Origin: Deltaproteobacteria bacterium tcs-42
GTDB lineage: Bacteria > Desulfobacterota > Desulfuromonadia > Desulfuromonadales > Geopsychrobacteraceae
DNA length: 41,659 nucleotides
NCBI GenBank assembly: GCA_002049545.1
Contig: LLYT01000014.1
Span: 1-41,659 of the forward strand
Direction of reading: 5' to 3'
Position 1 is the first letter of the stretch. Every line of letters starts with the position of its first letter. Of the stretch, positions 1 to 11,118 are shown in pieces. The position numbers were made by a program, and so were the translations under genes. The notes below the pieces were generated by a model, which saw nothing but the letters and a program-made list of their open reading frames with translations, searched no databases and was not told the DNA's origin.

Positions 1-68
1 CCGGATGCGGGAAAACCGCATGTCCGGTGGCAACGGAGGGCTTGGTCTTGGTGACAGGGCCATTCTAT
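1..68 (+). mobile_element. 3' end of a group II intron (domains V and VI), truncated by the window start
   Basis: Positions 1-27 fold as a domain V-like hairpin: CCGGAT pairs with GTCCGG below an AT bulge, and GCGG pairs with CCGC around a GAAAA loop. The following TGGTCTT/AGGGCCA stem with a GGTGAC loop fits domain VI. The sequence then reaches CATTCTAT, ending in the AY that group II introns use at their 3' end, so the junction is probably near 68. The domain V catalytic triad would lie just outside the window and cannot be checked. No reverse transcriptase is in the window. The 3' junction is inferred from consensus only. Confidence 0.55.
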
Positions 69-76
69 TCTCTGAT

Positions 77-217
77 TATTCACCACCACTACTGATAGGG
101 GCTTGTGGTACCCATGGAAAGGGCGTCTGTCGCCACGGACGGCGAGAGTCGAACGGCCATGGACGGCGCAAAGTGGCCTTTGGAATGGGTGCCTCAAGGC
201 ATTGCTGAACAGTTACA
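77..217 (+). repeat. Structured dispersed repeat, copy 1 (inverted relative to copy 2 at 3300-3417)
   Basis: This stretch matches the reverse complement of 3300-3417 almost throughout, with a few substitutions. It differs mainly by a 24-base insertion at about 143-166 that partly duplicates the neighbouring CCACGGACGG motif. The unit is itself palindromic: GGTACCCAT near the left pairs with ATGGGTGCC near the right, and AAGGGC pairs with GCCCTT. It starts a few bases after the predicted intron end. It has no credible ORF. Confidence 0.75.
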
Positions 218-453: not shown

Positions 454-1692
454 TTGGCACTTATATATGTTGATGAATTGGTTGGAGGGATGGTTCTGGC
501 AGAAGACCTGTTGACTCCTTCGGGAAGATTTATCCTGGCAGCGGGTGCTGTTTTGCAGGACGATCAACTCGAAATATTTAAATCCTGGGGAGTTATTGAA
601 GCAGATATCGAGGAATCAAGTTTGGGGGAGGAGTATAATCAAAATCAGGCATTGAAAGCCGAGTTTGTCGAACGGGCAAAAGATTATGTGTCTTCCCGAA
701 TGACGTTGAATGATCTTGATTCGGAACCGATGGCCTCGCTGTATCGTCATATTGTGCAGCGTTTTGCCCTGCGTATGCAGCAAGGTTGGCAGCCGATGAC
801 AATTTCCGAAGTTGCCATACCAGAGACCCGGGCTGGTGGGTCTCGACCGTTAAGTGTTCCGCAGTTGATCAAGGGAGAGGTGGATGTTGCATCGTTGCCC
901 ACGGTTTATACCCGTATTGTTGAGCTCTTGAATCATCCCAGTACTTCATCCCATCAGGTCGCTAAAGTTATCAGTAAAGATGCAAATTTGACAGTGCGCC
1001 TGTTGCGGCTTGTCAACAGTCCCTTCTACGGGTTTTCCGGGAAAATAGATTCTGTGTCGCGGGCAGTTTCTTTGTTGGGAATGAATGAACTGTTAAGTTT
1101 GACACTGGGAATTACCGTTATAAAGCAATTCCAGAATATTTCTGTTGATTTGTTGAGTATGGATTCATTTTGGCGACACTCTATTCGCTGCGCGTTGTTT
1201 TCCAAGATTCTTGCCGGTCACCTGGGTGAAAAAGATACCGAAAAATTTTTCGTTGGCGGGTTGCTGCACGATGTTGGACGTTTGGTGATGCTTGACCGAA
1301 TGGCCCCCCAGTATTCTGCAGCAATTATAAAAGCTCGACAGGATCAACTGCCGATGTACCGAGCTGAACAGGATTGTTTAAAAACAGACCACAGTATTGT
1401 GGGGAAGTTGTTGGCTGAAAAATGGCGATTATCACCGGCATTAATACGGATGATCGGCAGTCACCATTCTCCGCGACTCGCACAATATTCGACCGAGGCT
1501 TGTGTCGTCCATATTGCAGATATTCTCGCGCATGCTTGCGGAGATGAAATGATGCTGGTGAATGAGGTTCCAGTATTGCAAACAAAGGCCTGGGAAGAGT
1601 TGGGTCTTTCAGAAGTACTTATCGCACCAACTATCCAGCAAGTGGATGCAGAATTCAAAGATGTTGTTCAGGTTTTTATTTCTGACTCATAA
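454..1692 (+). CDS. HDOD domain signalling protein
   Basis: The product has 412 residues. Residues ~1-60 resemble the N-terminal extension of many HD-GYP proteins (a GGMVLAEDLLTPSGR stretch, then a hydrophobic AAGAVL run). Residues ~145-345 fit an HDOD domain: a VASLPTVYTRIVELLNHP opening, LTVRLLRLVNSPFYGF, and the GGLLHDVGRL segment that keeps an HD pair. HDOD proteins are output or scaffold modules of bacterial signalling and usually lack phosphodiesterase activity; the partner is unknown. The start is TTG at 454, with AAGGAA eight bases upstream and no better ATG. The gene is monocistronic, lies between the two inverted repeats, and converges with the small gene at 1842. Confidence 0.85.
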   Translation: MALIYVDELVGGMVLAEDLLTPSGRFILAAGAVLQDDQLEIFKSWGVIEADIEESSLGEEYNQNQALKAEFVERAKDYVSSRMTLNDLDSEPMASLYRHIVQRFALRMQQGWQPMTISEVAIPETRAGGSRPLSVPQLIKGEVDVASLPTVYTRIVELLNHPSTSSHQVAKVISKDANLTVRLLRLVNSPFYGFSGKIDSVSRAVSLLGMNELLSLTLGITVIKQFQNISVDLLSMDSFWRHSIRCALFSKILAGHLGEKDTEKFFVGGLLHDVGRLVMLDRMAPQYSAAIIKARQDQLPMYRAEQDCLKTDHSIVGKLLAEKWRLSPALIRMIGSHHSPRLAQYSTEACVVHIADILAHACGDEMMLVNEVPVLQTKAWEELGLSEVLIAPTIQQVDAEFKDVVQVFISDS

Positions 1693-3582: not shown

Positions 3583-5271
3583 TTACATACGACCTGAGCG
3601 CAAAATTGCGATTGCAAGTCCAAAACCAAGAAATCCTGCGACGGAATAGCCTAATAAACCCAGTATGGGGAAACCAAAAAGTATTGGCCCTTTATCGGTC
3701 TGCATGATCAGGGAGGATCCAACAATTAATGCCGCAATGACCACGCTGAATGAAATGCGATTGGTTGATTTATCAAGATCGTTAATCATACGTTCAAAGC
3801 CGCGGTGTTCAACATCGATTTTAAATTTGTTTCGATTGATGCGGTTGATAAGCTCTTTAATATCTTTTGGTAGACTCTTTCCCAGTGCCTGGTACGATTG
3901 CAGGATTTGTTTTGTATCTTTGGCAATACTCGTTGGTGAGTAGCGATCTTTGATGATCTGCTCGGCAAAAGGCTTGAGTTGAGCAACCATGTTGAAGTCC
4001 GGGTCGAGCTGTTTGCCGATCCCTTCCATGACAAATAAGGCACGAGATAATAACATCAAGTTGGATGGGAACTTGATCTGATATTCGGTCAGGATCTCAA
4101 TAAAATCAATCAGCAGCTTTCCAACCCTTAGATCCTGTAGCATGATGTCATAATAATCATCAATGAATTCGGTCAGATCACGTCGTAGATTCTTGATGTT
4201 TGAATCATCGTGCAATTCTCCAGAGTAAAGGAGCTGCGAGATAAGATGATCGACATCCCGCTGCAGAACGCACAGGAGCAGTTCTGTCAGATGGAGTTTC
4301 AGATCGTCATCCAGGCGTCCGACCATGCCAAAATCAAAGATACAAAGGGTGTTGCCCGGCAGTACATGGATGTTTCCCGGATGGGGGTCGGCATGAAACA
4401 GGCCATGGATAAAAACCTGTTTCAGGAAGTTGTCTGCTCCGTTCCGGGCAATAATTTGCGGATCGAGACCCGCCTCTTTTAATTTGTCCTGATTAGAGAT
4501 TTTTATTCCTGAAACGTATTCCAGGGTGAGTATCGAGTGACCGGTATAGTCCCAGAATACCTTGGGGATATGAATTGTTTCATCATCAGCAAAATTAGCC
4601 GCAAAGCGATCTGTGGTTCGTCCCTCTCGAGAAAAATCGAGCTCTCGATGGATGGATCGGCGAAACTCTCTGGCCAGTCCAACCGGATCGTATAGCTCGC
4701 CACCAGGCAGGTGTTTTTCGATCAGGTAAGCCAGGCCCGTCATGATATCCAGATCGGTTGCAACAATGGATTCAATGTCGGGTCTGCGAACCTTGCAAAC
4801 GACCTGTTCCCCGTTGAGCAGCGTGGCACGATGGACCTGGGCAATGCTGGCTGTAGCTAAAGGCGTTTGCTCAAATTCTTTGAATAGTTCTTCTGTCGGG
4901 TAGCCGAGCTCACGATGGATCTGTCCTTTAATTTCATCGGTTGGGACAGCGGGAATATGATCCTGAAGTTGCTGTAGCTCTTCCAGAATCTCAGCGGGAA
5001 CAATATCCGGCCGGGTCGAGAGGATTTGACCTAATTTGATAAAGGTTGGCCCCAGTTCTTCCAGGGCTAACCTGAATCTGGTCGCCTGGGTGAGGCGCTC
5101 CAGTTCGCGGGAAGCGGTTCCCAGAGAGACAATGCGCTTTCCCATTTCGAAGTAATAATCGATATTGAGCTGCTCGACAATATGGCCAAACCCGTACTTG
5201 ATCAGGGTGCCAAGGACTTGTCGATAGCGTTTGATGGAGCGAATATTGCGATTAATCCGTTTAAATGGCAA
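3583..5271 (-). CDS. ubiB: AarF/UbiB family atypical kinase
   Basis: The 562-residue protein carries the ABC1/ADCK/UbiB motifs. KLGQILSTRPDIVP is the KxGQ motif. ATASIAQVHRA replaces the P-loop. LFHADPHPGNI is the catalytic-loop equivalent and IFDFGMVGRL the metal-binding DFG. The last ~60 residues hold two hydrophobic segments (FSVVIAALIVGSSLIM and a Gly-rich one), as in membrane-anchored UbiB. UbiB ATPases support ubiquinone or menaquinone synthesis and lipid handling; the exact role here is inferred. The start is TTG at 5269-5271 with a poor ribosome-binding site, 21 bases after the phasin-like gene, so translation may depend on that gene. Confidence 0.9.
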   Translation of the reverse strand: MPFKRINRNIRSIKRYRQVLGTLIKYGFGHIVEQLNIDYYFEMGKRIVSLGTASRELERLTQATRFRLALEELGPTFIKLGQILSTRPDIVPAEILEELQQLQDHIPAVPTDEIKGQIHRELGYPTEELFKEFEQTPLATASIAQVHRATLLNGEQVVCKVRRPDIESIVATDLDIMTGLAYLIEKHLPGGELYDPVGLAREFRRSIHRELDFSREGRTTDRFAANFADDETIHIPKVFWDYTGHSILTLEYVSGIKISNQDKLKEAGLDPQIIARNGADNFLKQVFIHGLFHADPHPGNIHVLPGNTLCIFDFGMVGRLDDDLKLHLTELLLCVLQRDVDHLISQLLYSGELHDDSNIKNLRRDLTEFIDDYYDIMLQDLRVGKLLIDFIEILTEYQIKFPSNLMLLSRALFVMEGIGKQLDPDFNMVAQLKPFAEQIIKDRYSPTSIAKDTKQILQSYQALGKSLPKDIKELINRINRNKFKIDVEHRGFERMINDLDKSTNRISFSVVIAALIVGSSLIMQTDKGPILFGFPILGLLGYSVAGFLGFGLAIAILRSGRM

Positions 5272-5292: not shown

Positions 5293-5598
5293 TTATTTTT
5301 CTTGTGCCTTCAGTTGTTTCTCAAGCTGTTCCACTTTGCGCTGCAACTTTTTAAATTCTTCAGCGGTAACAACTCCGACGCGATCACAGGCTTTTTTGAC
5401 TTCATCCTGAGCCATTTCTTCCAGTTTTTCCTGATTTTCTTTGGCGGCATCCCGAAGCTTTTCGAGCAGGTTCTTGCCTTCTTCTTCGGTCAGGTTCATC
5501 CGTTTTTTGAGATCATCGATCAGCTCTTCCCCTTTTTTCTGGGTCAATGACATCGCACCAATTCCAGTCAGCAAGGTTTTCTCAACAATTTCCAGCAT
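5293..5598 (-). CDS. Phasin-like / PHA granule-associated coiled-coil protein
   Basis: The 101-residue protein begins MLEIVEKTLLTGIGAMSLTQ and continues as one long charged, heptad-rich helix ending LQRKVEQLEKQLKAQEK. This matches small phasin-like proteins (PhaF/PhaI superfamily) that in several Desulfuromonadales sit directly before an AarF/UbiB gene. There is no signal peptide. The ATG at 5596-5598 is five bases from a perfect AGGAGG. A GTG codon immediately before it would be only two bases from that site, so it is not chosen. Co-transcription with ubiB is likely. A role in polymer granules is a family-level guess. Confidence 0.65.
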   Translation of the reverse strand: MLEIVEKTLLTGIGAMSLTQKKGEELIDDLKKRMNLTEEEGKNLLEKLRDAAKENQEKLEEMAQDEVKKACDRVGVVTAEEFKKLQRKVEQLEKQLKAQEK

Positions 5599-5707
5599 CA
5601 CAGCCTCCTGTTAGCAAAAATACTGAGGTTTATAAACTTATGGAAATTATAACAGTTTATGAAAACACTTCAAATGGGTCAAATGGTTTGATATCACGAT
5701 GCGTTTA

Positions 5708-5814
5708 ATCTTGATGGCGTTGCAAAAAAATCCGCCCTATGGCGTTACGCTGGTTTTTCAGGATGAAATTTTACTTAGCCAGCCGATGAGTTTTTGCGCA
5801 AGCATCAATCTTGA
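5708..5814. repeat. Imperfect inverted repeat overlapping the 3' end of the gene at 5805
   Basis: The left arm, TTGATGGCGTTGCAAAAA, is an imperfect inverse of the right arm around TTTTTGCGCAAGCATCAA. The right arm includes the stop codon of the minus-strand gene ending at 5805. A related sequence is at 17524-17574 (shared core ATGAGTTTTTGC..AAGCATCAAT). It does not encode a protein. Confidence 0.55.
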
Positions 5815-8123
5815 AACCATGATGGAGCGGGAAGGTTGAGCTTGTCCCAGGTTTTCTTGACCATTTTGCGTGCTGATTTTGAGTTTTGAAGCTGACTATA
5901 GCAGAGATCGTTCAGGTGCCTATACAGAATATTCAGGTCTTTCCGGTAATGTTTCAATAATTCTTCGAGTTGATGTCGGTTTTTCGGGAGATCAATCTCC
6001 GTTTTTCCCGATGCTGAGCAGAAGAGCAATGTCTGCTTTAGCTCTTCGCCGTAACCGGTGATAATTTGACCCGTCGCATCTTCCAGCTCGAACTCTCCAA
6101 GAAGAGTATTTTTTATGACCAATGGCGGGGTGATGGTGTAGTGGCACATCTCCGGTTGGTCGAGGAAATAGAGGTATTGTTCGGGGAAATTGGGGGTTCC
6201 GTCAGACGATAATTGTTGGGCGATCGTATCCTTGAGTTTTCTTGCTGAAGGAGCCTCAGGTGTGGCCGTTTTCGGGTTTTTGATGACCTCTGGCCGTTCA
6301 ATGTTTTGAATCGCTGGGCAGGTGAGCAGATCTGCCAGAAACTGATCAATTGACGGCGATTGATGATCGGCTGAATTCCTTTGTCCAAAGCTTGTGAGTT
6401 CATTGAGAAGGAGCGGCTCAGGGTATGGGATGTGGCCTTCAATCGTCTCCTTTGCCGCACCATCCCGTAAAGCATCCGGGTCTGTTTCGCTTACCAGAAT
6501 AATTTGCAGCCACTTGTAGAGTTGGCTTTGCGCATAAACCTTCCACCCGGGGATGTGATTACTGGTGAGTCTGTCAAGATCGGGCCAGACCAGTTCATTT
6601 CCCAGCAGCTTGTAGAGATCTTTCGGTAAAGTGAGAGCGAGCAATAATTGATTTCTGAGGCGTTTTGGATCTGGACTTGGGGTGATTTCCCGCACTTCAT
6701 CGATACGTTGCAGCGGAAAGGGTTCATCTGATGGTTTGTTGCTGGAAATAGAGAGGTGGATATTCCCATTGTTCAACAATTTTATCTGTTGAAAACTGAA
6801 AAAGTCACACAATAAAGACCACGCTAGGATGTTTTCAGGTTCTTGTAACAGGTTGATCGGTAATTCTAGAGAAAGCTTCTGCCCGGGATGGCAGAGACCG
6901 AGGAGATGGATCAATTCCCAGAGCCAGAACGGCTGGCCGGTTTTAACTTTTAAATGGCGATTTGGCCAGGACACTCGTAGTCTGGCGGTGTATTCTCGGC
7001 GTTTGGAGCTGACTATTCTGTTTTGGTTTGAAAGCCGGGCGACAACCGGCTGTTGCGAAAGGCTGTCTCGATCCAGTTGAAATATGTTGCCAAAAAGTAA
7101 TTCACATGAGGGGAGAGATGCCATCTCAGTTAATAGTGCCGTAGCTGCGAGGAAAGATACTGAGTCCGAGAGCACAGTTCTGGTTGTGCCGTCAAGCGGT
7201 GGCGATGCCGGATAGAGATGGACAGCAGCCGGTTTTTTTCTATCGATTGCGCCCTGGTACCAGGAATTGGTCAGGCAATAAATGCTCGCTGTAGCTCGTT
7301 CAGCCGGCTCGTTCCAGGAAAGTTGCCGCAAGCGTAGCAGTAAATGGTGAAAGCAGACAGCTGTTTCAAGTGGTAACGGGGGCGGTGTGATGGTTGTGTT
7401 ACGCGATAACGGGTGTTGTATAAAATCGGGCAGTGTGGCGAGCGAAAGCTCGATGGCACGGTCCATTTTTTCGGGCAGAATTGCGTCTGGAAATTTATTA
7501 AACCAGAGCAAGGCGAGAACTTGCAATAGTAACAGTCGGTTCGCTTCATTTGCACAGGTATCTGCATCTTCGCTGGAGTGCTGACCGGTTTGAGAGCGTT
7601 GGCTGCGATAGGCTTCAGCTAGTGGTGGCAGGGCTTGTTGCAGAGTCGCTTGAAATAAATTATTAAAGTAGTAGGGGGAAAGTTCTGCCGCAGGGATGGC
7701 ACCGAGGACTGCTATCAGTTTGAGTGCTTCCAAAATATCAACAAGTAAAAACCGGAAAGTTTCGGGATGGTTTGGCTTGGATAAGGGGAACGATTGCTGT
7801 TCTTTGACCTTACTGTTTTCGATCTGCCAAACTCTGGCCTGGTCTGGTTCCCAGGTTACGAAATTACGCAGCCCCAAGGCCGATGCACAGTTCCGACCCC
7901 GCTCGAGTTCCATTTCCAGATTGTCTTCCGGCAGTAACAGTACCCCTCCGGCCATCAAGCTCTGCCGGTTGATCCAGAAAACCAGAGGTGGCTTTATCAC
8001 TCCCTGTTCTGTGTCTATCTCTGGCCGGGTATCAACCCGTCGAAACGGGGTGCGGCCGTGTTCGATGATCTCTTCGGTCCAGATGGCCAGTTGTTGGGTG
8101 AATTGTTGCAGATGTTGATTCAT
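5805..8123 (-). CDS. Uncharacterised 772-residue protein in the ruvCAB run
   Basis: I do not recognise this protein. It starts at ATG 8123, 13 bases after the ruvB stop; a longer frame reaching 8225 would overlap ruvB by 89 bases. There is no signal peptide or membrane helix. Residues ~20-110 contain a segment (VFWINRQSLMAGGVLLLP, then LERGRNCASALGLRNFVTWEPDQARVW) with the rhythm of PD-(D/E)XK/HsdR_N-type nuclease domains, but I cannot identify a catalytic set. Residues ~185-330 are helical and leucine-rich (LLLLQVLALLWFNKFPD). The C-terminal ~90 residues are charged helices (KNRHQLEELLKHYRKDLN). Its position suggests a job in DNA repair or recombination; this is inference from context alone. 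Confidence 0.75.
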   Translation of the reverse strand: MNQHLQQFTQQLAIWTEEIIEHGRTPFRRVDTRPEIDTEQGVIKPPLVFWINRQSLMAGGVLLLPEDNLEMELERGRNCASALGLRNFVTWEPDQARVWQIENSKVKEQQSFPLSKPNHPETFRFLLVDILEALKLIAVLGAIPAAELSPYYFNNLFQATLQQALPPLAEAYRSQRSQTGQHSSEDADTCANEANRLLLLQVLALLWFNKFPDAILPEKMDRAIELSLATLPDFIQHPLSRNTTITPPPLPLETAVCFHHLLLRLRQLSWNEPAERATASIYCLTNSWYQGAIDRKKPAAVHLYPASPPLDGTTRTVLSDSVSFLAATALLTEMASLPSCELLFGNIFQLDRDSLSQQPVVARLSNQNRIVSSKRREYTARLRVSWPNRHLKVKTGQPFWLWELIHLLGLCHPGQKLSLELPINLLQEPENILAWSLLCDFFSFQQIKLLNNGNIHLSISSNKPSDEPFPLQRIDEVREITPSPDPKRLRNQLLLALTLPKDLYKLLGNELVWPDLDRLTSNHIPGWKVYAQSQLYKWLQIILVSETDPDALRDGAAKETIEGHIPYPEPLLLNELTSFGQRNSADHQSPSIDQFLADLLTCPAIQNIERPEVIKNPKTATPEAPSARKLKDTIAQQLSSDGTPNFPEQYLYFLDQPEMCHYTITPPLVIKNTLLGEFELEDATGQIITGYGEELKQTLLFCSASGKTEIDLPKNRHQLEELLKHYRKDLNILYRHLNDLCYSQLQNSKSARKMVKKTWDKLNLPAPSWFQD

Positions 8124-8136
8124 CAGGGTTATCTCT

Positions 8137-9165
8137 TTATGAACCGAAAAGAGGTCCGTTGCCATCTGTCTGTGCTGGAGTCCGGTGAAAATGGCGAAAG
8201 CAGCTTTCTGTGACAACACGGCCACGCGGAGTTCGATTGAGAAACCCCTGCTGAATCAGGTAGGGTTCTATAACCTCCTCGATCGTGTCCCGTTCTTCAC
8301 CTATGGCTGCTGCCAGAGTATCCAGGCCAACGGGGCCCCCCGAAAATTTATCGATGATGGTCAGCAGCAAGAGGCAATCCATGTAGTCAAAACCTTGATT
8401 GTCAACTTCCAGCCGTTGCAAGGAATGGTCTGCGAGTTCGCGGGTGATTTTACCGTCACCTTCAATTTCGGCAAAATCACGGACCCGACGGAGTAACCGG
8501 TTGACGATGCGCGGGGTTCCCCGACTGCGGCGGGCAATCTCTTCGGCGCCATCATTGTCGATCTCGATTTCAAGGATATTTGCACTGCGCCTGACGATCG
8601 TTGTCAATTCGTCTTTGGAATAAAATTCAAGTCGGCTGATTACACCAAAACGATCCCGTAATGGCGATGAAAGCAGTCCGGCGCGGGTTGTGGCTCCAAC
8701 CAGGGTAAAGCGGGGGATATCCAGCTTGATGGTGCGAGCCGAAGGGCCCTGGCCGATCATGATATCGAGCTGGTAATCTTCCATTGCTGGATAGAGAATT
8801 TCTTCAACGACCGGAGATAAACGATGGATTTCATCGATAAACAGAACGTCTCCCTCTTCAAGATTAGTCAAAACGGCCGCCAGATCCCCGGTTTTTTCAA
8901 TGACCGGGCCGGAGGTGGTCTTGATGCTGACTCCCATTTCCTGAGCAATAATATTGGCAAGTGTAGTTTTTCCCAATCCGGGAGGGCCGAAAAAGAGAAC
9001 ATGATCGAGCGCCTCCTGACGATTGCGGGCGGCATCAATAAAGACCTTCAAATTTCGCTTTGCCTTGCTTTGACCAACATATTCCTGTAGGGATTTCGGG
9101 CGCAGTCCAACCTCAAAATTGATTTCCTCGGGTTGACCATCGGCGGCAATCAGGCGTTCGCTCAT
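8137..9165 (-). CDS. ruvB: Holliday junction branch migration ATPase RuvB
   Basis: RuvB is the hexameric AAA+ motor that, with RuvA, drives branch migration of Holliday junctions. The 342-residue product has normal length. It has Walker A GPPGLGKT at residues 60-67, Walker B in LFIDEIHRL, sensor I in [10 protein letters not shown], and the arginine finger in SPLRDRFG. The C-terminal winged-helix DNA-binding domain ([25 protein letters not shown]) is intact. It lies 11 bases after ruvA. The end, PLFGS, is followed by the unknown gene at 5805-8123. The family assignment is certain. Confidence 0.98.
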
Positions 9166-9176
9166 TTTTTCTCCAG

Positions 9177-9776
9177 CTATTTCAGAAGGACTTGCAGTGC
9201 AGCTTTTAAAATATCTTCAAGGGGGGCTTCTGGAGCCAACTGTAGATTTGTCAAGGCGCGTTTTGCCAGGGTCTCTTTGTAACCCAGATTGACCAGGGCT
9301 GAAAGTGCTTCCTTGTGGTTCTCATCCGGGGTCGGTATGCTGCGGCTTGTTGGCGTAAGGGATGCGGAAGCGGCGAATGCTGTGGCTTTTTCCTGGAGCT
9401 CAAGCACCAGCCGTTCCGCACTTTTTTTACCGATTCCGGGAATATCTGTCAGACGGGGGATGTCCCCCTGGCTGAGTGCCAGTGACAGATCATCGGTCGG
9501 AATGTGCGAAAGGACCGTGATCGCCAGTTTCGGGCCGACACCGGAGACCGATATCAACAAGCCAAAGAGATCTTTTTCTGCGCTGCTGGAAAAACCGAAC
9601 AGGGTGATAGCATCTTCTTTAACGTGGGTGTGAACCTGTAGCTGAACCTTGCCATCTTCAGGCAGTCCATAAAATGTCGAGAGGGGAATCCACACCCGGT
9701 AGCCGACCCCGGCAACATCAACAATGATCTGCTCCGGACTGCGATGGACTAATTGTCCGGTTAAAAGGGCAATCAT
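9177..9776 (-). CDS. ruvA: Holliday junction DNA-binding protein RuvA
   Basis: RuvA forms the tetramer that clamps the four-way junction and loads RuvB. The 199-residue product has the N-terminal OB-fold ([20 protein letters not shown]), the tandem helix-hairpin-helix region with [17 protein letters not shown] and [19 protein letters not shown], and the C-terminal RuvB-binding domain ([20 protein letters not shown]). Length and domain order are normal. Its ATG overlaps the ruvC stop by four bases (ATGA), which points to translational coupling. Confidence 0.98.
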
Positions 9777-10291
9777 GATCGTCTTCCTCGAATTTCCCGG
9801 GTCGTTAGCGCAATTTTTCCACCCGAGTGATGACTATGGGCATGGCAAATTGCGACTGCAAGTGCGTCAGCTGCATCTTCCTGAGCGATTTCAGGCAGGT
9901 TCAATAAAGTTTTAGTCATCTGTTGGACCTGATTTTTTCCTGCACGGCCATAACCGACAACAGCACTTTTTACCTGCAATGCCGAGTATTCAGCAACGGG
10001 CAGACCCGCATTAATTCCAGCCAGTAGGGCGATCCCCCGGGCGTGTCCCAGTTTCAGTGCCGACGCCGGGTTGCGCGCCATGAAAACCTGTTCGACGGCA
10101 ACCGCTTCTGGTTGATGTTTTTCGATCAGTGTACAGAGTTTCTGATAAATTATTTGCAAGCGAACTGCAAGAGCATCCTTGCTATGGGTAAAGATTGCTC
10201 CGTTGTCGATATGGATCAGGCGATTGCCACGCTGCTCGATAAAACCGTAACCGGTAGCTTTGCTACCTGGATCAATGCCTAAAATTCGCAT
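9773..10291 (-). CDS. ruvC: Crossover junction endodeoxyribonuclease RuvC
   Basis: RuvC cuts Holliday junctions symmetrically as a dimer with an RNase H fold. The 172-residue product begins [19 protein letters not shown], with the first catalytic aspartate at D7. The acidic residue in [19 protein letters not shown] and the pair in [15 protein letters not shown] complete the site. It is first of the overlapping ruvC-ruvA-ruvB set and follows yebC by 80 bases, the usual order in many bacteria. Confidence 0.97.
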
Positions 10292-10371: not shown

Positions 10372-11118
10372 TCAGCTCATGATGCGTTCCATCTCATCGT
10401 CAGAGATATCGAGATTGGTATGAACATTCTGCACATCATCGTTGTCTTCCAGAACGTCAATCATTTTCATCAATGATTCAGCCTGTTTGCCTTCAACCGG
10501 GCTCAGGGTTTGGGGAATCATGGTGACTTCCGCTGCTCGATATTTGAATCCCTGTTCTTCGAGACTGTTTCTGATGGTTTCAAACTCTGCCGGGGCGGTG
10601 ACAATCTCGATGATGCCATCTTCTTCTTTGACATCTTCAGCGCCTGCTTCGAGGGCCGCTTCAAAAATAGTGTCAAAGTCGTTATCATCGGAAAAGATGA
10701 TTTGTCCTTTGCGATCAAACATAAATGCTACGGATCCGCTGACACCAAGGCTGCCACCATATTTATTAAAAGCATGGCGCACCTCTGCGACTGTCCGGGT
10801 CCGGTTGTCGGTCATGAATTCAACGATGACGGCGACGCCTCCCGGGCCATATCCTTCAAAAATGTCCTCTTCGTAGGTGACCCCATCGAGGTCTCCGGTC
10901 CCTTTTTTGATGCCACGATCAATGTTATCTTTGGGCATGTTGGCTTGTTTTGCCTTGTCGACTGCCAGTCGCAGGCGAGCGTTGGATTCAAGATCTGCTC
11001 CCCCAATTTTGGCTGCAATGGTGATTTCTTTGATCAGTTTTGTAAATATTTTTCCACGCTTGGCATCTTGTGCCCCTTTGCGGTGTTTGATATTGGCCCA
11101 TTTACTATGTCCAGCCAT
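10372..11118 (-). CDS. YebC/PmpR family regulatory or translation protein
   Basis: The 248-residue product begins [20 protein letters not shown], the conserved opening of the YebC/TACO1 family, and shows the signature [21 protein letters not shown]. Members act as DNA-binding regulators (PmpR type). More recent work links the family to ribosome rescue at proline-rich stalls. Which applies here cannot be told from sequence. The start is the ATG at 11116-11118, with AAGGAG nine bases upstream; a frame extending to 11151 lacks a matching site. The gene precedes ruvC on the same strand, the common arrangement. Confidence 0.93.

Follow-up and report, generated by a model that had tools for sequence, protein, structure and literature searches.

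The gene that follows ruvB in the window (the whole 41,659-nucleotide stretch of DNA analysed here, part of a 2.55 Mb draft genome) is best explained, taking the evidence as a whole, as encoding a catalytically dead type IIG-like protein whose present role is probably to partner RuvABC as a DNA-binding or scaffold protein, a reading to which we assign a probability of roughly 0.45. That the protein is a degenerate, domesticated relative of type IIG restriction-methylation proteins is, on fold and profile evidence, very likely. Its ancestry, the loss of its catalytic motifs, purifying selection on the gene, and its linkage to the ruv operon are supported by our results, and the positional tie to Holliday-junction genes is strong.

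A 772-residue open reading frame starting 13 bases past ruvB, directly after ruvC-ruvA-ruvB, had been picked out in a sequence-only reading, and its coordinates hold, on the minus strand: the frame runs from an ATG at 8123 to a stop at 5807-5805, a 13-base spacer (8124-8136) separates it from the end of ruvB at 8137, the minus-strand gene order is yebC-ruvC-ruvA-ruvB-772-codon gene (Table 1), and frame 1 of the plus strand is interrupted by stops throughout 5805-8123. An LpxC-like gene (assigned by eye) is, with phasin and UbiB, among the genes that come after the 772-codon gene in the window. No terminator was listed in a minus-strand scan from ruvB to the 772-codon gene, and the top promoter-like site (5673-5646, 10/12) lies 3′ of the gene and before the phasin gene, so that ruvB and the gene are likely to share one transcript; two promoter-like sites scoring 9/12 (8976-8948 and 8474-8447, minus strand) fall within ruvB, and the region holds 12 such sites compared with 6.8 in shuffled sequence. 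LexA-type sites, sought with a pattern allowing at most one mismatch, number 11 against 7.7 expected, and give no SOS/LexA signal. No hydrophobic N-terminus is evident by eye in the protein, which is acidic overall (pI 5.9) with a basic methyltransferase-like part (9.05).

Table 1. Features of the post-ruvB gene, its neighbors, and its nearest type IIG-like relatives
Feature	Position	Strand	Basis or remark
Very likely degenerate type IIG-like restriction-methylation gene	5805..8123	-	772 codons + stop
N-terminal PD-(D/E)XK-nuclease-like domain, residues 1-119	7767..8123	-	hhalign + Foldseek
Mostly helical region, residues 120-292	7248..7766	-	model; first part aligns to type IIG-like relatives
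N6-adenine methyltransferase-like domain, residues 293-510	6594..7247	-	Foldseek, VIA-align
Variable stretch, residues 511-620	6264..6593	-	much longer region here in type IIG-like relatives; absent from short homologues
C-terminal domain, residues 621-772	5808..6263	-	common to 1,174-residue type IIG-like protein and separate 274-residue protein
Codon 46 (Pro), PD-aspartate position	7986..7988	-	two alignments to different sets agree
Codons 60-65 (GVLLLP), ExK position	7929..7946	-	two alignments differ by few residues
Codons 385-388 (SWPN), presumed motif IV remnant	6960..6971	-	placed by eye
ruvB	8137..9165	-	Pfam
ruvA	9177..9776	-	name from sequence; synteny
ruvC	9773..10291	-	name from sequence; synteny
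yebC	10372..11118	-	name from sequence; synteny
Phasin-domain protein	5296-5601	-	downstream of 772-codon gene; domain scan
UbiB-like kinase	3583-5271	-	after phasin gene; name from sequence
Nearest type IIG-like protein, 1,174 residues	L185:3894-7418		
Nearest type IIG-like proteins, 1,223-1,231 residues	L199, L200, L201		
hhalign N-terminal segment	family 9-169, relatives 12-190		E 1.4e-4
hhalign middle segment	family 398-454, relatives 528-584		E 0.057
hhalign C-terminal segment	family 693-772, relatives 1150-1230		E 1.4e-4
Loci with GGDEF insert between ruvB and the gene	L043-L045, L047, L048, L052, L056, L058, L060-L062, L069, L070, L072, L073, L076, L077, L081		

The sequence-only reading had called the protein unrecognised, which is correct for direct searches and incorrect in that its identity can be reached through fold and profile comparison. 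With the window protein as query no family was found in Pfam and NCBIfam at E<=1 or in PADLOC-DB 2.0.0 at E<=0.1, and the family profile matched no PDB sequence at E<=10. When the 61 aligned homologues (23-73% identical to the window protein) were searched at E<=0.1, the matches in Pfam and NCBIfam were isolated, each in no more than two members (best E 0.0015 and 0.0017), and the best PADLOC match, in a single member, had an E of 0.021. We rejected a known anti-phage defence protein as a candidate, there being no consistent PADLOC profile match for the window protein or the 61 members. No published description of this ruv-linked family was found in the literature searched.

By fold, the middle of the protein resembles N6-adenine methyltransferases in both Foldseek and VIA-align. 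The full-length AlphaFold2 model has a mean pLDDT of 41, with blocks of residues 401-500 at 62-84, and the model of residues 1-119 averages 59; both are weak because their input alignments held only 6 and 7 close rows. For the full model, 49 of the 50 Foldseek matches listed of 846 (E<=10) carry the name of a DNA adenine methyltransferase or restriction-modification protein, the exception being a putative SAM-dependent methyltransferase; matches include a type I M protein, M.TaqI, CamA, M.BseCI, BrxX/PglX, M.EcoKI, and LlaBIII, and also BpuSI and DrdV, which are type IIG or IIL enzymes. The 50 VIA-align matches listed are all DNA adenine methyltransferases or restriction-modification proteins and span residues 293-549, the best having a Z of 10.0 and an rmsd of 3.4 over 137 residues. 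For residues 1-119, Foldseek reached E<=0.001 only with two chains of one putative restriction-endonuclease-domain protein (9y1l) and ranked BpuSI eighth (E 0.068) in a list where unrelated folds stood both ahead of it and after it; VIA-align was weak, with Z<=5.6 and unrelated folds interleaved. The N6-methylase similarity for which the sequence-only reading had proposed a check is therefore borne out in the middle of the protein; the nuclease-like N-terminus that it had proposed survives as a resemblance of about 119 residues to a PD-(D/E)XK domain (weak in VIA-align), but with a broken motif; and no confident structural match to a non-DNA family, named there as a possible refutation, was found.

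Profile comparison connects the family to type IIG-like proteins more directly. In the phylum sample, 10 of 395 genomes matched, nine within the order and one (G483) through the C-terminal domain only: there the C-terminal ~140 residues pair with the end of a 1,174-residue protein containing N6-methyltransferase domains (phylum profile search, E 4.2e-8). The best PADLOC profile for this protein (L185) is a type IIG enzyme, as it is for L199, L200, and L201, which were recruited by similarity to the L185 protein and not to the ruv-linked family. Alignment of the 61 homologues with these four proteins by hhalign gave three non-overlapping, collinear matches. The best score was 48.2, whereas 200 column shuffles reached no more than 30.4, and the reversed control gave an E of 0.45. 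Taken domain by domain, the N-terminal, middle, and C-terminal scores of 47.0, 25.5, and 47.2 (shuffle maxima 25.6, 25.3, and 22.5) were reached by none of 100 column shuffles, and the N-terminal comparison (about residues 7-171) had an E of 2e-5. By sequence alone the middle segment is borderline (E 0.02-0.06), so the methyltransferase likeness rests mainly on the fold search. Against single proteins, the N-terminal match reached its best E with L200 (8.4e-5) and was weak with the L185 protein (0.052); for the C-terminal match, only the L185 protein gave a strong E (3.4e-6), L200 gave a weak one (0.082), and L199 and L201 gave no match. Seven L185-related proteins were compared and four entered the final alignment; among those left out, L198 (E 0.045) and L202 (E 0.17) matched only in the middle, and L187, a plasmid frame, matched at the C-terminus (E 0.026). 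Comparisons with the N6_Mtase, Eco57I, and HSDR_N_2 sets were weak, some sets giving no match; in single comparisons, uncorrected for how many sets were tried, the best E was 0.0064 with the whole profile, 0.0016 with the methyltransferase part alone, and 0.019 with the N-terminus. Nuclease-, methyltransferase-, and C-terminal-like parts, the middle being marginal, lie in one chain in type IIG order.

The C-terminal domain also occurs in another protein. Two genes downstream of the 1,174-residue protein, G483 encodes a 274-residue protein that matches the domain with an E of 6.5e-5 and has it in common with the type IIG-like methyltransferase; the row (L185:3894-9862) consists of the methyltransferase, a protein of 507 residues whose start looks, by eye, like that of an ATPase, and the 274-residue protein, and is possibly an undescribed defence set.

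Neither of the two catalytic centers expected of such an architecture can be recognised in the family. At the position of the PD aspartate (column 46), the 61 homologues have proline in 44, aspartate in 11, alanine in three, histidine in two, and glutamate in one; nine of the 11 with aspartate read PDL or PDM and two read ADL, and we take these as a probable fossil of the PD motif. No homologue has lysine or glutamate anywhere in columns 60-65, the ExK position, and with the nuclease motif broken the protein should not cut in the manner of a PD-(D/E)XK nuclease. In methyltransferases, motif I is the glycine-rich SAM loop and motif IV is [DNS]PP[YFW]; both were assigned by eye, since a forced alignment of the methyltransferase part failed to place them. 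Glycine is the commonest residue in none of columns 316-333, where the SAM loop was placed by eye, and the presumed motif IV site reads mostly (S/A)WPxR, with tryptophan at column 386 in 61 of 61. Across the 61 homologues, then, neither a complete set of the type IIG catalytic residues (PD-(D/E)XK) nor motifs I and IV at the places assigned by eye are found, and we infer that the protein no longer cuts or methylates. The four type IIG-like relatives, also read by eye, all retain the methyltransferase motifs (DPACGGG or DPSCGTG, and NPPY or NFPY); L199 and L200 have RRDLTLL...TGEVK, with TGEFR at the same place in L201, and the L185 protein lacks ExK and reads VLMTLP, close to the VLLLP of the window protein. 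If real, these would form a staircase from both sites kept, through loss of the nuclease motif in the L185 protein, to loss of both.

The presumed recognition region appears reduced as well. No segment aligned between the middle and C-terminal matches, which are separated by about 180-240 columns in the family versus about 430-570 in the relatives, and homologues of 633-686 residues lack roughly residues 480-615. These short homologues (L036-L039, L062, L064-L068, L077, and L080) are natural deletion variants without what is left of the recognition-like region elsewhere in the family. Residues invariant in the family are P26, W50, N52, G84, R264, Q267, W386, P422, P647, Y650, P713, and W759, and R383 and R389 are nearly invariant in the 61 homologues.

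Among the genomes searched, the whole protein was found in one order only, and in most genomes of that order. A single-sequence search found it in 122 of 136 genomes of the Desulfuromonadales, and a profile search of the class scored 122 of 277 genomes positive, every one inside the order, with none of the 141 class genomes outside the order positive and, as a rule, one locus per genome. Named relatives are six Desulfuromusa MAGs (62-75% identity in the best segment), a genus that NCBI taxonomy places in the Desulfuromonadales. The plasmid (72,556 records) and phage (50,697 records) collections gave no match at E 1e-5, and none of 28 viral-contig stretches that fit a pattern encoded a relative. 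In addition to a normal copy, G034 carries a second, much diverged one (26% identity) next to a contig edge, at L082:1-2079.

Fourteen genomes of the order gave no match, and all of these except G006 were checked for ruvB: among the 13, it was present in seven and not seen in six, and the latter, missing both genes, are probably assembly gaps. We were unable to find a diverged copy near ruvB in the seven in a search of greedy non-overlapping frames of at least 80 residues (best frame E 0.082) that covered these seven order genomes and five other genomes of the class, one locus (L091) being short. Since ruvB is kept and no diverged copy was found nearby, two lineages, family f7 and genus g11 of family f2, lost the gene or never had it. 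In L086, ruvB, a GGDEF gene, and phasin-, UbiB-, and LpxC-like frames stand in the usual order (by eye) with the gene missing, an apparent gene loss. Four copies were flagged for stops; the stop in L032 is the ordinary C-terminal end, and the other three are disrupted, L070 near the start, L042 near residue 91, and L081 around residue 285, where a stop is accompanied by a change of frame, reflecting either errors or decay. The seven genomes with ruvB and without the gene, together with the three disrupted copies, indicate that the gene is dispensable in some lineages.

Wherever the region upstream of the gene is visible in the whole-genome loci, it contains ruvB. Same-strand ruvB lies upstream in 65 of 70 whole-genome loci (L013-L082, from 69 genomes, the window's own included), and longer flanks add two, making 67 of 70 and 67 of 67 where the upstream region is visible, L028, L034, and L082 starting at a contig edge; six loci from named contigs, several probably from the same genomes, all have the same linkage. 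Homologue neighborhoods, a check that the sequence-only reading had proposed, agree with it on the link to ruvB, and homologues are not found mostly outside ruv neighborhoods, the outcome that it had said would count against it. Loci were fetched from 18 families of the order, and the linkage holds in all of them, whereas inserted genes vary from locus to locus: in the 71 loci with ruvB visible the gap to the gene is 5-242 bases in 51, about 500 in two, and 1,456-1,992 in 18, each of which holds a GGDEF-type gene. The inserted proteins read GGDDY in most cases and GGDYY or GGDDF in single cases, and the one scanned with Pfam is HAMP-GGDEF. A small lipoprotein-like frame often comes next after the inserted GGDEF gene (by eye).

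Consistent with vertical inheritance of the gene, the family's pairwise distances correlate with RuvB distances across 49 loci (Pearson 0.78, Spearman 0.54; none of 999 Mantel permutations as high), with the family evolving much faster (mean p-distance 0.70 vs 0.21 for RuvB). NG86 dN/dS is 0.09-0.13 in six estimable pairs, a rough figure because dS is 1.4-2.5 and near saturation; nine further pairs were saturated. These values, together with matches in 122 of 136 order genomes, mean that the post-ruvB frame is a real gene, and the results support purifying selection on it.

What the gene is retained for has to be weighed against this record. A selfish restriction-modification remnant decaying without function would account for the lost active sites, the shortened recognition region, and the three disrupted copies among those fetched, but it sits badly with a dN/dS of about 0.1 after catalytic loss, with its presence in 122 of 136 genomes, usually at a single locus, and with distances that follow RuvB; it is disfavoured, and we consider it very improbable. 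It is distinctly unlikely, though less so, that the protein is still an enzyme in which old folds carry a new active site built from family-specific invariant residues, candidates being W50, N52, R264, Q267, and W386 along with the nearly invariant R383 and R389. Invariance of this kind across homologues of 23-73% identity is unusual for pure scaffolds; the residues themselves, however, are tryptophan, asparagine, glutamine, and arginine, and no conserved acidic pair or SAM loop appears in the windows counted.

A more credible alternative, though one we would still not call probable, is a domesticated, dead type IIG-like protein with a job outside Holliday-junction processing, for instance as a DNA-binding protein with an anti-restriction or regulatory task or as a phage-defence decoy or sensor, and retained beside ruv solely for the stable, co-expressed position. 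The seven genomes in two lineages that have ruvB without the gene would fit such a job, as would the other genes that share the stretch (the GGDEF protein, and the phasin and UbiB-like genes downstream) and the defence-like character of the related type IIG-like proteins. Yet linkage to ruvB holds in all 18 families sampled while inserts come and go, no plasmid or phage copy was found, and PADLOC gave nothing consistent. Given its place in the operon, its linkage across the order, and the loss of its sites, we tentatively prefer, at somewhat under even odds, a non-catalytic DNA-binding or scaffold subunit made together with RuvABC.

In the history that we consider very likely, an ancestor of the Desulfuromonadales took up into its ruvCAB operon a type IIG-like protein with nuclease, methyltransferase, recognition region, and C-terminal domain; both catalytic centers and, apparently, most of the recognition region were then lost, with selection keeping the protein as a mostly single-copy core gene. 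We infer, for this putative partner of RuvABC, that it binds DNA and acts with the resolvasome: the dead nuclease and methyltransferase folds might grip DNA near the junction while the C-terminal domain contacts a partner, and the protein might place or time the action of RuvAB and RuvC, with no cutting and no methylation. The fullest version, in which a whole restriction-modification enzyme became a permanent, dead resolvasome subunit, a DNA reader or clamp steering RuvABC and perhaps sensing DNA structure or modification, we regard as unlikely.

RuvABC is generally regarded as a machine of three subunits. Should a fourth, non-catalytic partner of defence origin be confirmed, it would represent a new path from restriction enzymes to recombination factors and a testable regulator of junction resolution across one order. 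Even without a Ruv role, an order-wide, selected restriction-modification pseudoenzyme that has lost both sites would be unusual, and it belongs to a family that the profile libraries searched miss.

Comparative genomics has linked other genes to ruv: YebC, a Clostridia-only protein, and a DUF208 protein (PMC3403352), none of which is described as restriction-derived in the part of that paper on ruv-linked genes, its section 10, where no Desulfuromonadales protein is named. The RecC subunit of RecBCD offers an analogy only, as the fold of the part cited differs from that of the ruv-linked protein. The closest comparison is with type IIG enzymes (BpuSI, DrdV, and MmeI, as well as L185 and L199-L201), whose layout is treated in the review PMC4081073 and whose order of nuclease-like, helical, N6-methyltransferase-like, and C-terminal parts the ruv-linked protein shares; unlike them, it lacks ExK, a visible SAM loop, and NPPY, has a shorter stretch between matches, and is an order-wide core gene in the ruv operon. 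The L185 protein stands halfway, by eye, with methyltransferase motifs kept and the N-terminal ExK absent. DnmA (YeeA) of Bacillus subtilis, according to PMC7261158, is an MmeI homologue without the N-terminal nuclease motif and outside an active restriction system, and is similar to the ruv-linked protein in being an MmeI- or type IIG-like protein that lacks the nuclease motif; the DnmA methyltransferase is active, however, whereas the methyltransferase signature of the ruv-linked protein is gone, and we rejected a DnmA-like orphan methyltransferase for want of intact methyltransferase motifs at the places assigned by eye. Precedents such as DnmA mean that single steps of the proposed history are known elsewhere.
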